Assembly (NCBI GenBank): GCA_025201345.1
Contig: JAIXMG010000009.1
Coordinates: forward strand, 1,054,001-1,118,000
From: Thamnidium elegans
Taxonomy: Eukaryota; Mucoromycota; Mucoromycetes; Mucorales; Mucoraceae
Direction of reading: 5' to 3'
DNA length: 64,000 bases
Shown here: piece by piece, positions 52,405 through 58,776 of the stretch
Layout of the letters: each line of letters begins with the position of its first letter
Position numbering within the stretch: position 1 is the stretch's first letter
The notes under the pieces: model-generated
What the model saw: only the letters and a program-made list of their open reading frames with translations
What the model was told of the DNA's origin: nothing
Databases searched by the model: none
Made by a program: the position numbers and the translations under genes

Positions 52405-53190
52405 TTAAAGAGTACCACAATCTGTAATTGTAATGGTCTCTTGTGGTGTTTCTTTTACTTCGGTTACTTGATTGATTTGTTCTAATACTTGTAACCCTTC
52501 AACTACCTGTCCAAAAATAACATATTTGCCATTGATCTTATCAAACTGAGCATGTTTATCACCCAACGTTATAAAGAATTGCGAAGTATTGGAGTTCTTA
52601 CCAGAATTAGCCATGGCTACTAAACCTGTCTTGTTAAACTTTTTAGCAAGACCGGGTTTTTCATCATTAAACTTGCCATTATAAATACTATCTCCACCAG
52701 ATCCATCACCTTTTTTTTAAAAAAAAAGTTTAGTTAAACATATATATTAAATCCATATGATTATTTTACCTCTAGTTACATCACCACCTTGCACAACAAA
52801 ATCTTTAACAAGTCGAAACATACGAGTATCTTTAAAGAACAAGGGCTTCTTGGAACTCTTGCCTATTTTACCGCCTGTACAGAGCTGAATAAAGTTCTCG
52901 CAGGTCTTGGGACATTCTTTTTGGTTTAACTCGATTACAACTCTACCTCCCTTTAAAGGTGTAGGAGCGTCCACGATCCATTGTTCGCTAGTAGCTGTAG
53001 GATCATTGGAAAGAATGTCTCGTAAGGTTTCCTTGTTTTCGCAATCCAGTTCATCAAGATTATCTGTGGTGAAGCCATAAGTTGAGGACCATTGCTTTAC
53101 CCATGCTTTAGCACTGTTGTATCGGCTGGTGGCGTCGGTGAAAGCGGCAACGTCTCCGATTTTTATGTTGAGAAATACTTTATTTGACAT
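52405..53190 (-). CDS. Cyclophilin-type peptidyl-prolyl isomerase with N-terminal extension
   Basis: Exons 52770-53190 and 52405-52709 give 241 aa. The first about 75 residues (FLNIKIGDVAAFTDATSRYN) are not cyclophilin; the domain begins near GGRVVIELNQKECPKTCENF. Catalytic-site motifs FRLVKDFVVQGGDVTRGDG (with the key Arg of the F-x-R pattern) and ANSGKNSNTSQFFITL are intact. The usual W of the cyclosporin-binding W-L-D motif is replaced (AQFDKINGKYVIFG), so cyclosporin binding may be weak, as in several divergent cyclophilins. The acceptor AAAAAAAAG|GTGATGG restores the invariant GDGSGG. Location is probably cytosolic or nuclear. Confidence 0.88.
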
Positions 53191-53496
53191 TTTTTTATAA
53201 AGAGGCGTGTCTTGTTTTTATTTATTTTTATTTTATTTTTAAAAAAAAAAAAAAAAAAGCGGAAGGGTTTTAGTCGATGGTTATTGGACAGAAAGGGCTA
53301 CTCGTTATTAAACAGAATCAATACCAATAATCAGTTGAGACTGAGTATCTTGTCGTCAAACCTCTGACAATATTTATCTGTGTCCTTCATAATGAAACAA
53401 AAAAAAAGGGGGGGGGGGATTCGTTGATATAAAGGTATTTAAGGCTAATTACTTCTTTATCGTAAATCTTTCTCTCTTACATCTATATTCTAAACT
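53191..53496. other. Spacer between cyclophilin and the micro-ORF cluster
   Basis: Upstream region of both. Contains A18 and G10 tracts. No ORF of note. Confidence 0.4.
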
Positions 53497-53571
53497 ATGG
53501 GTTGCTGTTTTTCTTGTTGCGCGTCAAGTGGTCGTAGTACCAGATCTTACGATAGTTCGTCTACTTGGTAA
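53497..53571 (+). CDS. MGCCFS micropeptide, copy 1 (24 aa)
   Basis: Micro-ORF encoding MGCCFSCCASSGRSTRSYDS then SSTW and stop. Gly2 with Ser6 fits the N-myristoyltransferase consensus MGxxxS/T, and C3, C4, C7 and C8 are candidate palmitoylation sites. If translated, it would be a membrane-tethered peptide with a Ser/Arg tail. The ATG follows CTATATTCTAAACT. A donor-like GTAATG overlaps the stop, so a longer spliced form is possible. Too short for any family call. Confidence 0.45.
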   Translation: MGCCFSCCASSGRSTRSYDSSSTW

Positions 53572-53780
53572 TGCTACTATATAAAAGTCTTTTTTAAGTT
53601 TTTATACTTTCTATTTCTTTTTTTTCTTTTTTTTTTTTATGTAATAAAATCCTAACTTAAATGTTGTTAAACCCACTCTAACTTTTTCAACAATAAGAAG
53701 CACATATTTTTAATTTTATAAAGAGCGTACTATTATTTTTTCTTTTAAACCTAACTTTTTTTCTCTCCTTCTATCGCGTT

Positions 53781-54011
53781 ATGAATTGCTCTGCTTCTTC
53801 CTCTCTCGGCCGTGGTTTTAGACCAACTCAAGTCTCTTCTTGGGGTAAGTGGGTCCTGATTATAAACCGATTTAATAAAGGTGTTCCCCTAGTATAAAAT
53901 AATACAACCATTAGTTATAGCCATTACAAAAAATCAGTTAAATAAAAAGTCTATTTGTTCAAAGTAAAAAAAAAAGAAAAAATCAATTGTTGTCTGTTTT
54001 TAGGAACATGA
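53781..54011 (+). CDS. Ser-rich micropeptide related in position to the MGCC series (23 aa if spliced)
   Basis: ATG AAT TGC opens MNCSASSSLGRGFRPTQVSS, then WG. A good donor (GTAAGT at 53845) and acceptor (TTTTTAG at 54003) would end it as WGT. Gly2 is missing, so it should not be myristoylated. Its 3' flank (TTAAATAAAAAGTCTATTTG) resembles that of the copy at 55342. Tentative. Confidence 0.3.
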
Positions 54012-54118
54012 ACCGGTTACATAATGAGTTACTTTTTGTGAGTCGTATATAAATGTATGAACTTTATTCGATATTTCTTTATACAAATATATTTTTCAAT
54101 TTCGTAAAAAAAAAATCG

Positions 54119-54205
54119 ATGGGTTGTTGTTGCTCTCGTTCTAGCTCGGATAGTGCTTCTTGTCTAAGTGCTCTTGATCAATTCCCAATGCCACCTTCAC
54201 GTTAG
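54119..54205 (+). CDS. MGCCCS micropeptide, copy 2 (28 aa)
   Basis: Encodes MGCCCSRSSSDSASCLSALD then QFPMPPSR. The first six codons (ATG GGT TGT TGT TGC TCT) are the same, base for base, as in the copies at 55066 and 55342, while the tails diverge. MGxxxS plus three adjacent Cys is a textbook dual-acylation (SH4-like) signal. It follows an A-rich leader. Confidence 0.5.
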   Translation: MGCCCSRSSSDSASCLSALDQFPMPPSR

Positions 54206-55065
54206 AAGACTATATTTTATGTAGCTCCATAGTTTTCTTTTAAAAAAAAATGTATACTTCACAACATTTTTATAATAAATTTTTGGTTTCATTGATTTGC
54301 TTTATCCTAAAAAGAATAATTTGAATACATATACTATATTCTATACTTTTATATTCATACATCTGATTTTTTTAAAAAAAATTTTTACGTGGTATTGTTA
54401 CAACAAATTTTATTCATTTTCAAGTAATTATTTAATATGTATAGTACTTTATCCAATCATTCTTTTAAGCATTGTGAATACTGAAACCAATAAATTTCTT
54501 TGGTCCTTGAGAAACTGCACTCTGATTTTAAGATGGCGTAACGACATCTTCTAGTTCTTTAGGTAATATAATTCTACTCGGAAAGCTACAGTACTTAGAT
54601 CAAAGTTTCTTTAAGAGGTTGTAAATCGTGAACTTTTTAACAAAGGAGCGAAAGAGTATTGTTTACGTATTTTTTAGTCTTTTTTTATAAATCTAACAAA
54701 AAGCGTCATTTGATAACAACTTTGTACTAAAGAAACCTAATAATATGCTCAGAATTTTGTTGTCAGTATCAGTAAACCATACCCGACTCAGTACCATAAT
54801 AGACTCGTGAATAAAAAAAAAAAAAAAAGTCGCTAATTATTTTTAGAGCAAAAAAGTGTGTACCAGTATTCAGAAACAATGAGTTGTTCTATACTGAAGA
54901 CGCGCTCTAACTCTGGGTTCTCGGCGTAGCATATTGTTCAATACTTATGAATGAGTTTTGAATATGTTGCTATATACACAAGAAAACAAAACATATAAAA
55001 ACAAGCAAAATAATATACATTTTATCCTTCTTTTTTTTTTCTTTTTTAAAAATAAATAATCAATA
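54206..55065. other. Spacer within the micro-ORF cluster
   Basis: AT-rich. At 54879 a further tiny ORF (MSCSILKTRSNSGFSA) occupies the place where a unit would be expected and may be a diverged member. Nothing else recognised. Confidence 0.35.
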
Positions 55066-55128
55066 ATGGGTTGTTGTTGCTCTAGTGATAGTAGATCATG
55101 TGTCGACTCCGGTATAGACATATCCTAA
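55066..55128 (+). CDS. MGCCCS micropeptide, copy 3 (20 aa)
   Basis: Encodes MGCCCSSDSRSCVDSGIDIS and stop. It has the same start block as the 54119 and 55342 copies. The VDSGID end resembles FSDSGIG of the next copy, so similarity goes beyond the Cys run. It is preceded by a T-rich/A-rich leader (CTTTTTTAAAAATAAATAAT) like that of the next copy. Confidence 0.5.
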   Translation: MGCCCSSDSRSCVDSGIDIS

Positions 55129-55341
55129 AAAATCATCGTTAAATTGTAAGTATACTATTTGCTTTTATAGAATACAGAGTAATCATTAAACGTTTTTTAT
55201 TTACTATGTAGTGTTTGGGTCAAATAAATCTACACTTGCAACTTTTTTTTTATAAAAAAATAAAGGACCACAAATAAATAACTATAAAAGCTTACCTTTT
55301 TTTTTAAAAAATATATACTTATCTTTCTTTTTTAAAATAAA

Positions 55342-55413
55342 ATGGGTTGTTGTTGCTCTCGTAGTAGTCCTTTGTTCAGTGATTCCGGTATAGGTTTTCT
55401 CTCCAAGAAATAA
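55342..55413 (+). CDS. MGCCCS micropeptide, copy 4 (23 aa)
   Basis: Encodes MGCCCSRSSPLFSDSGIGFL then SKK. Basic and Ser residues follow the Cys block, as expected for a membrane-targeting SH4-like peptide. The 3' flank carries TTAAATAAAAGTTTATTTG, probably a polyadenylation region, shared with an earlier unit. Confidence 0.5.
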   Translation: MGCCCSRSSPLFSDSGIGFLSKK

Positions 55414-55531
55414 AAATATACAAAATACTTGTTTGTCATAAATATGTGCTGCTCAAAAGATTATTCAAAGCCGTAATTTTGTATCCATTAAATAAAAGTT
55501 TATTTGTCCTATTTAAAAAAGAAAACTAGTA

Positions 55532-55565
55532 ATGGGTTTTTGATGCTCTAGCGATATATATTATC
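55532..55565 (+). pseudogene. Degenerate MGCCCS unit
   Basis: ATGGGTTTTTGATGCTCTAG corresponds to ATGGGTTGTTGTTGCTCTAG of the intact copies, with the second Cys codon turned into a TGA context. It shows that the start block is an inherited repeat and that some units have died. Confidence 0.6.
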
Positions 55566-57114
55566 TTCTTTTTATAAAGGATGATGGAATTTATGCCATG
55601 TTATATGTATACACAATCATCTATTATAAAGCCGAGTTTTTTTTTTTTTTTTTTTTTTTTTTTGCTAAAGCTCAATTTCCCTGAATGTTGGATGTCATTC
55701 GTATATACCTGCATTGTAATTATTCCTGTGTGTATATATACCGAAATACAGAGAAAAAAAAACCCCTTAACGTCACAACTTTGGTTCCAAGTATCTGAGA
55801 AGATGACGAGAGCACGAATAGATCAAAAGTATTCAACAGTGTTGTCTTTAGTCATTCCTTATGAAAGAACGTGCGGTCTTGTTTGTTATAAAACTATAAT
55901 ATAGCGTGATATAACGGCGTGACTCAAGACATGATCAACTGAATAGGGTGACAACATGTTACCTCCCGAGATTTAGATATATAGTGCTTACTTCTGTTTT
56001 TTTCTACTTTCAAAAAAAACTATAAACTTTATTTCTTTTTAAACAATAAAATCATAATCGGATGGCTTGGTGTAACATAGAAATATCAATCTTAATATGT
56101 ACATACAACGGCCTTTATGTATTGATTGAACTTTCTTTCTTCTAAAAAAAAAGGCATAAATAACTTCCATAACCTTATTTGTAGTATACATGAAAAATGT
56201 ATAACCATGCATATTTCGGAAAAGTCGTACCCGTGATTTTATTTAAAGAGTAAATCTCTTTCTTTATTAGATATGAAGGGTCGGTGCAATAATGAAAGTT
56301 CCCCAGTAAAATCCTTTTTTCTTTTCATGTAGTATCTCTCCCTCTTTTTTTTTTCTGTCGAGATATTTAGTTCTTTTTAGCCACGCTTTTAGGAATGCTA
56401 TTTCTTTTTCTGCAAGAATTTCTCAAAAAATTTAGAAAATTATGATATCGTTACAGAGTGTCAGAAATAATTTTAATAATGAAATCATGTAGCTATGGTA
56501 ACTACGTTTCATAGATCATGTAGTTTTTTTTTTTTAAAAAAAAAAAAAGTAATGTCTGTGTACAAATTATTGTCCTTTTCGTTACTGCTACTACTTGATT
56601 AACCAGGTTAAAATATTTATTAATTTAGTGCACCATACGCGAATATATCGCATGTTTACCTTTTAAGGAGAGAGATATTCTTTTTCCAAAAGGAGGGGGG
56701 TAATATTTTTTTTTGCTTGGGAGCAGCCTTATTAAAAGAAAATTTCTTTAAAATGAATACATTGTAAATATCATGGTAAAAGGACACCTTATGGTTAACA
56801 AAACTCGTATATAATTACTTTTATTATTATAAGAAAAAAATAAAAAAAGTAATATTTTGTATTAGACCTTTTCGCATCTTTAAGCTGCTTGTGTCACTAT
56901 CGCCATTACATACTTAAATAACATTGTTGAAACATTTAAAGGAAGAGTGTTATATTTTTTATATATTAAATTAAAAAATATATATGAGGTAGTAGTTTTT
57001 TACTTCAAAAGATAAAAAATTAACAACTTTATATATATATGATACTAGGATAAACATAAAAGTATTTTATATAATGTAGCTGAAAATTTCAGTTAGAAGT
57101 AAGATAATGTAGTT
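55566..57114. other. Gene-poor AT-rich stretch
   Basis: No gene recognised. Contains a T24 tract (55637-55662), A/T palindromic runs (56526-56548, 56951-56985) and an A3G6 stretch at about 56690. Short ORFs have no features. Confidence 0.45.
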
Positions 57115-57690
57115 CTAAGGAAAGAAGATGCTACGCTGGTACTACCAGAAGAGCTGCATTCACAGAAAAGCTAAAAGTTCAGAATAGGAATCTGGTAAAG
57201 CAAAAGAAAGTAGTAAAATGGTCAAAAACTTTTTTTCAAGAATCTGATCGCATCCCTTTAATTTCTTTTGGTGATGAAGAATAAAGATACTATTCGCATT
57301 AAAGGCCATACTTCCGGTTGTATAGCAGTGCTGTACAAAGAGCTAAGACAGAGGTCAAAAAGATTTAGATCTGTTGTGGTGGATATAGATGAGTTTAGAT
57401 CCTCAAAGTTATGTATGTATTTAAATATTTTTTATAGACTTTTAATTCTATTTTTTTCTTTAAAAAATGCAATTAAGTCTGCAGAAGCTGTAAAAAAAAA
57501 AAGAGCTGTACTCAATAAAGCTTTTAGATGAAAGTTTTTCCATGGTATTTTAGTATGCAAAAACTGTAAAATACTTTGGAATAGAGATATTAATGTTAGT
57601 AAAACATGCTTGATATATATTTTTCTATCTGGAAAGAAGAAGGAATACCCTTGGCCTTTCAAAGAGATATCTCTGCAATGAACGCAGTTT
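57115..57690 (+). pseudogene. Decayed Fanzor/TnpB-like RNA-guided nuclease gene (C-terminal part)
   Basis: Readable pieces in order: ISFGD, then after a frame change MKNKDTIRIKGHTSGCIAVL, YKELRQRSKRFRSVVVDIDE and FRSSKLC. After an AT-rich insert or intron comes GILVCKNCKILWNRDINVSK. The DE-(F/Y)R-(S/T)S-x-x-C block with a later CxxC...WNRD-x-N motif is the RuvC-II/III and zinc-ribbon arrangement of eukaryotic Fanzor (OrfB-like) proteins. Several frames and in-frame stops are needed, so the gene is dead. The N-terminal half is not found. Confidence 0.65.
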
Positions 57691-58548: not shown

Positions 58549-58776
58549 TTACAAATAGGAGAAATCACTATCATTATCATCATAAAAGTCCTCTTCATCT
58601 GAAGGTGTACGATCATATTCTGTAGAAGAATGTGTATAGTAGATGGTATCTATCGCGTAAAAGCGAACTGATTTTTTATTTGGGTATGATGTGGATGAGG
58701 AAGTAGACCTCCTTCTTGTCAGATTTGATTTGAGTTGAGTAGAAATACGGCGCCAAGTACGTGTAATAGAATTCAT
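58549..58776 (-). CDS. Small conserved-type protein with RVxF-like motif (75 aa)
   Basis: Single exon. Basic N-terminus (TWRRISTQLKSNLTRRRSTS), then NKKSVRFYAIDTIYYTHSST and EYDRTPSDEEDFYDDNDSDF. The KSVRF followed by YYTHSS.EYDRTP is a short motif seen in various fungal proteins and matches the PP1-docking RVxF pattern. A link to protein phosphatase 1 is inferred from that motif only. The start codon and acidic C-terminus are clear, and the ORF is more structured than the surrounding noise. Confidence 0.65.
   Translation of the reverse strand: MNSITRTWRRISTQLKSNLTRRRSTSSSTSYPNKKSVRFYAIDTIYYTHSSTEYDRTPSDEEDFYDDNDSDFSYL

Follow-up and report, generated by a model that had tools for sequence, protein, structure and literature searches.

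N-myristoylation is directed by a consensus with Gly at position 2 and a small residue at position 6, and Cys residues close to the N-terminus may additionally be palmitoylated. The SH4 domains of Src-family kinases and the N-termini of G-alpha subunits carry such a Met-Gly-Cys...Ser start, which fits both modifications and is linked to a protein with a catalytic or signalling role. Small acylated proteins devoid of a catalytic domain exist as well, such as geminivirus C4 and the small myristoylated proteins of trypanosomatids. Here, we describe a locus of Thamnidium elegans in which the same kind of start opens a series of very short ORFs. While the anchor of SH4 domains and G-alpha subunits is joined to a larger protein, the ORFs described here stop after 20 to 28 codons. 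Their predicted products would be lipid-anchored without an enzyme, as are geminivirus C4 and the trypanosomatid proteins, both of which are several times longer.

A tandem cluster of micro-ORFs

The window, i.e., the whole stretch of 64,000 nucleotides that was analysed (C64:1054001-1118000; genome of 34.1 Mb in 64 contigs), carries four ORFs of 20 to 28 codons with MGCC(C/F)S starts inside 1.9 kb of the plus strand. All four (O1, O3, O5, and O6) lie where the preliminary description of this DNA had placed them, as do the dead copy and a pair of looser relatives (O2 and O4) that it had also noted (Table 1). O2 has the gene anatomy of the family, while O4, lacking a TATA box, is a doubtful member. 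A gene for a cyclophilin-type isomerase on the minus strand precedes the cluster, and the surroundings are gene-poor, the longest stop-to-stop frame over ~7 kb (53.3 to 60.4 kb) being 108 aa.

Table 1. Features of the micro-ORF locus (window positions)
Feature	Position	Strand	Remarks
TATA box of O1	53428..53433	+	69 nt before ATG
O1 micro-ORF	53497..53571	+	MGCCFSCCASSGRSTRSYDSSSTW; AATAAA at 53643
TATA box of O2	53717..53722	+	64 nt before ATG
O2, relative without Gly2 (MNCSAS)	53781..53897	+	MNCSASSSLGRGFRPTQVSSWG...; 38 codons unspliced, AATAAA at 53941
TATA box of O3	54046..54053	+	TATATAAA; 71-73 nt before ATG
O3 micro-ORF	54119..54205	+	MGCCCSRSSSDSASCLSALDQFPMPPSR; AATAAA at 54274
O4, doubtful relative (MSCSIL)	54879..54929	+	MSCSILKTRSNSGFSA; TATA box absent within 150 nt, tail GC 0.60
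TATA box of O5	54994..54999	+	72 nt before ATG
O5 micro-ORF	55066..55128	+	MGCCCSSDSRSCVDSGIDIS; AATAAA at 55223
TATA box of O6	55283..55288	+	59 nt before ATG
O6 micro-ORF	55342..55413	+	MGCCCSRSSPLFSDSGIGFLSKK; AATAAA at 55491
Dead copy	55532..55558	+	start block, then early in-frame stop; nearest to O5

A pattern search with ATGGGNTGYTGYNNNTCN returned 16 places in the 34.1-Mb genome versus 1 for the reversed control, a density at which ~0.001 would be expected per 2.1 kb versus the 4 observed. These 16 places comprise the 4 copies of the window, 1 copy on another contig (C23a), 4 G-alpha starts, and 7 other starts or chance occurrences. The tandem ORFs at the locus look like genes, judging from their sequence, and are shorter than those that gene finders usually list.

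A scan for this anatomy was run blind to the protein start, retaining ORFs of 15 to 60 codons with a TATA box, a poly(A) signal, and a GC content of at least 0.38. Seven of the 576 window ORFs passed, four of which were O1, O2, O5, and O6 (Fisher, 3.8e-8, with TATA and GC limits set when the copies were already known). O3 was missed because of its upstream ATG, and none of the minus-strand ORFs at the locus passed. With wider limits, 5 of 585 ORFs in the fetched loci were retained, 2 of these 5 being C23a in overlapping loci. The scan also retained a 19-codon ORF on the plus strand (57128-57187; TATA box at 60 nt and poly(A) signal) that has no acylation start. Further along, a 75-codon ORF on the minus strand (58549-58776) begins with a basic, Ser-rich segment, contains the stretch KSVRF, and ends in an acidic tail; it has no Pfam match.

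Promoters, start block, and tails

A TATAWA box starts 59 to 73 nt before the ATG in six of six copies (O1, O2, O3, O5, O6, and C23a, at 68 nt in the last), O2 showing the same spacing as the MGCC copies. As background, such a box is found at 50 to 80 nt for 16.6% of positions and for 22 of 123 ATGs, copies included. The 150 nt upstream of O4 and of the dead copy lack a TATA box, and none of the 11 other MGCC-pattern places in the genome has one at 55 to 80 nt. Beyond the TATA box, no k-mer of 6 to 8 bases with at least two G/C was common to at least four of the six upstream regions. Downstream, AATAAA follows the stop codon by 72 nt in O1, 44 nt in unspliced O2, 69 nt in O3, 95 nt in O5, and 78 nt in O6. 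Candidate splicing of O2, from a GTAAGT donor at 53845 to an acceptor ending at 54003, would lead to ...SSWGT*, with no AATAAA within the 250 nt following the spliced stop. In O3, an in-frame upstream ATG at 54053 would open a 50-aa ORF; it sits 7 nt past the start of the TATA box and is thus probably upstream of the transcript start.

The conservation of the copies is concentrated in the start block. Over codons 1 to 6, the five intact MGCC copies show identities of 100%, 93%, and 83% per 6-nt bin, compared to a mean of 32% and a maximum of 63% in flank bins anchored at the ATG. Among 21 pairs of gapped upstream alignments (O1, O2, O3, O5, O6, C23a, and the dead copy), one fell below p 0.05 (O2-O6, 0.04), and none of the 15 downstream pairs did so. 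Flanks are not homologous, and hence the copies are not recent duplicates. The common 3' flank with AATAAA put forward earlier therefore holds for the signal, present after five window genes, but not for the flanks themselves, which are not homologous among the 15 pairs compared. In O3, O5, and O6, the first six codons agree at 18 of 18 bases, as had been reported for three copies, and their third-position identity exceeds what coding constraint alone would predict given the codons used in 17 long ORFs (p 4e-4). Identical codons for G-C-C-C-S despite saturated flanks suggest either a role for the nucleotide sequence of the block as well or homogenization by short gene conversion.

Outside the start block, which was excluded from the calculation, tails were scored as log-odds from the codon usage of the same 17 long ORFs. 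In-frame scores were positive in seven of seven tails and summed to +20.6, versus sums of -68.9 to +4.1 for the other five frames; individually, the true frame scored best for just three of the seven. Without the start block, tail GC is 0.41 to 0.60 versus 0.28, below the 1% level for O1, O2, O3, and O4 and at the ~7% level for O5 and O6. The Ser share of eight tails ranks within the top 0.4 to 3.4% among 447 window ORFs. In pairwise comparisons, the tails resemble each other weakly (p below 0.05 for 4 of 28 pairs, with a minimum of 0.0105), a motif SCxxSG(I/R) is common to some tails, and the likeness between O1 and O2 (GRxxR...SSxW) was set aside as not significant (p 0.11). A profile search of the PDB listed 60 matches at E 0.28 or worse, nearly all nanobodies and one named only as an outer membrane protein; in the three alignments displayed, the match falls on the framework stretch SCxxSG, and the hits were taken as chance. 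The single-sequence PDB search gave no match. As for the micropeptide family initially proposed, these observations argue for its genomic part, that is, a family of micro-ORFs that appears to have promoters and coding statistics.

A fifth copy and the genome-wide search

The fifth MGCCCS copy, C23a, at C23:1004259, encodes MGCCCSKSSGASSCASSGRTL. Removal of a candidate intron of 74 nt (GTAAGT...TTTTTAG) would change the end of the peptide to ...LVG, and AATAAA lies 87 nt past the spliced stop and 167 nt past the unspliced one. A genome protein search with C23a as the query found C23a alone and missed the known window copies, indicating that such a search is insensitive; with a 48-aa MGCSTS protein as the query, the same search likewise returned only the query. 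Wider genome patterns were found at 77 places versus 55 for the control, 16 versus 6, 12 versus 0, and 59 versus 32, the last being MGCxxS. Translation covered all places of the 16-place pattern, 41 of the 59 MGCxxS places, and, for the 77-place pattern, those where loci had been cut or fetched. None of the 20 MGCxxS loci fetched looks like an additional microgene. Two candidates were rejected as microgenes: L100, with a TATA box at 62 nt, has only 8 codons, and L095 has an upstream AT repeat and a reading frame that continues open further upstream.

At C23:665895-666038 (L058 and L073), a 48-codon ORF, MGCSTSRNSSGSTSSRRTST..., is Ser/Arg-rich, with a possible acylation start (MGCSTS) whose ATG is preceded by a TATA box at 87 nt; it is perhaps a longer relative, its tail likeness being not significant. 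At C21:180328 (L006 and L022), MGCCSS opens a frame of 74 codons that has a sub-threshold match to a Pfam ubiquitin-binding domain (E 0.083); a longer acylated protein probably has its first exon here. Finally, C17:527264 and C19:35369 (L083 and L084) are near-identical stretches on different contigs, apparently owing to a recent duplication or a repeat.

Proposed free lipid anchors and competing readings

Gly2, Cys3, Cys4, and Ser6 are kept in five of five MGCC copies (O1, O3, O5, O6, and C23a), in agreement with the acylation signal that the preliminary description had read in the four window copies, and Arg or Lys occupies position 7 in three of the five. By the general consensus, these peptides fit good N-myristoyltransferase substrates with palmitoylatable Cys. 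Lipidation does not extend to the looser relatives, since both O2 and O4 lack Gly2; O2, for that reason, cannot be myristoylated. The genome has an N-myristoyltransferase family match on C14 (E 4.4e-38) and ~11 G-alpha loci by our grouping, four of which have G-alpha domain matches next to MGCCxS starts (MGCCQS twice, MGCCSS, and MGCCAS).

It could be argued that the MGCC blocks are ordinary membrane-anchor first exons of longer spliced proteins whose remaining parts lie downstream, as other MGCC starts in the genome open larger genes, e.g., those of G-alpha, and as GTAAGT donors lie near the ends of C23a and O2. Nevertheless, O1, O3, O5, and O6 have their own stops, with AATAAA 69 to 95 nt later and the next TATA box close behind, C23a and O2 would gain no more than 24 residues from their listed acceptors, and open frames around the cluster do not exceed 108 aa. 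We consider this reading very unlikely. Another reading concerns metal binding. Fungal copper metallothioneins are ~25 residues long and Ser/Gly/Cys-rich, with many Cys in repeated CxC. The micro-ORFs could be short tandem Cys/Ser-rich genes of this type, the CCC block and a fourth Cys binding Cu(I) or Zn; their size, tail composition (rich in Ser, Gly, and Cys), tandem arrangement, and TATA promoters are reminiscent of these genes, and 4 Cys are present in all but one of the five MGCC peptides. However, metallothioneins have more Cys, in repeated CxC, and no Gly2/Ser6 acylation consensus, whereas each peptide here has 3 to 4 Cys with at most one CxC and no repeated CxC, and Gly2 and Ser6 are kept in all five even though metal binding needs neither. 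Pfam and NCBIfam gave 0 families for five of five members, a weak test at such short lengths, and the single copper-response-like motif tried had one match, 220 nt upstream of O5, and none otherwise. Altogether, metal binding seems improbable to us.

The start block might also be kept as a DNA or RNA element, or for the opposite strand, the ORFs being a by-product. The agreement of third positions in O3, O5, and O6 points in this direction, as does an antisense frame of the EQQQPI type that no stop codon interrupts across the block in any of the five intact copies, and that contains an ATG in O5 and O6. O1 and O3 lack an ATG in this frame, as does C23a over the stretch examined, whose edge the frame reaches, and its openness follows from the low content of Tyr, His, and Gln in the peptides; the antisense reading of the block was rejected on these grounds. 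Moreover, the summed codon bias favors the sense frame, the spacing of the TATA boxes and the poly(A) signals agree with the plus strand, and Rfam had no match in 53000-56600, so that we hold this explanation to be unlikely. One dead copy, an anchorless O2, and a gene-poor stretch would suit relics, i.e., a decaying micro-ORF family of no present use. Against such decay, five copies retain an intact start block between saturated flanks, and a TATA box is found in every intact MGCC copy and not in the dead one, which makes relics quite unlikely.

We consider it reasonably probable, from sequence evidence, that the locus holds a tandem family of independent microgenes, whose MGCC products would be free SH4-like anchors, predicted to be doubly acylated. 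Saturated flanks, a dead copy, and an anchorless O2 indicate that this family is old and turning over. Each unit of ~0.2 kb would consist of a TATA promoter, an ORF of 20 to 28 codons (up to 38 in O2), and a poly(A) signal, and the TATA promoters suggest expression in regulated bursts. After removal of Met, N-myristoyltransferase would acylate Gly2 and palmitoyltransferases the Cys block, a double acylation predicted from the consensus for O1, O3, O5, O6, and C23a. The peptide would then rest on the inner face of the membrane, where its short Ser-rich tail may be phosphorylated. The peptides leave no room for a catalytic domain, and even candidate splicing would add at most 24 residues to O2 and C23a. 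The simplest use of such a free dual anchor would be to occupy membrane sites, acylating enzymes, or a binding partner reading the tail. Most likely, its action would be to occupy, in a regulated manner, membrane sites or the machinery for acylation and sorting, and full-length MGCCxS proteins, such as the G-alpha subunits of this genome, would be the natural targets of competition.

More tentatively, these genes may form a eukaryotic family that encodes nothing but a lipid anchor, with stand-alone SH4 micropeptides, expressed from TATA promoters, that tune signalling as competitors of G-alpha and other acylated proteins, either for lipid modification or for sites on the membrane, a possibility that we regard as doubtful. 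If translated, these ORFs would encode very small dedicated acylated gene products and provide a natural test of the function of a lone lipid anchor. Their translation would also imply that the length cut-offs of gene finders can miss whole multi-copy families, and the TATA-ORF-AATAAA anatomy may, therefore, constitute a route to finding more such genes.
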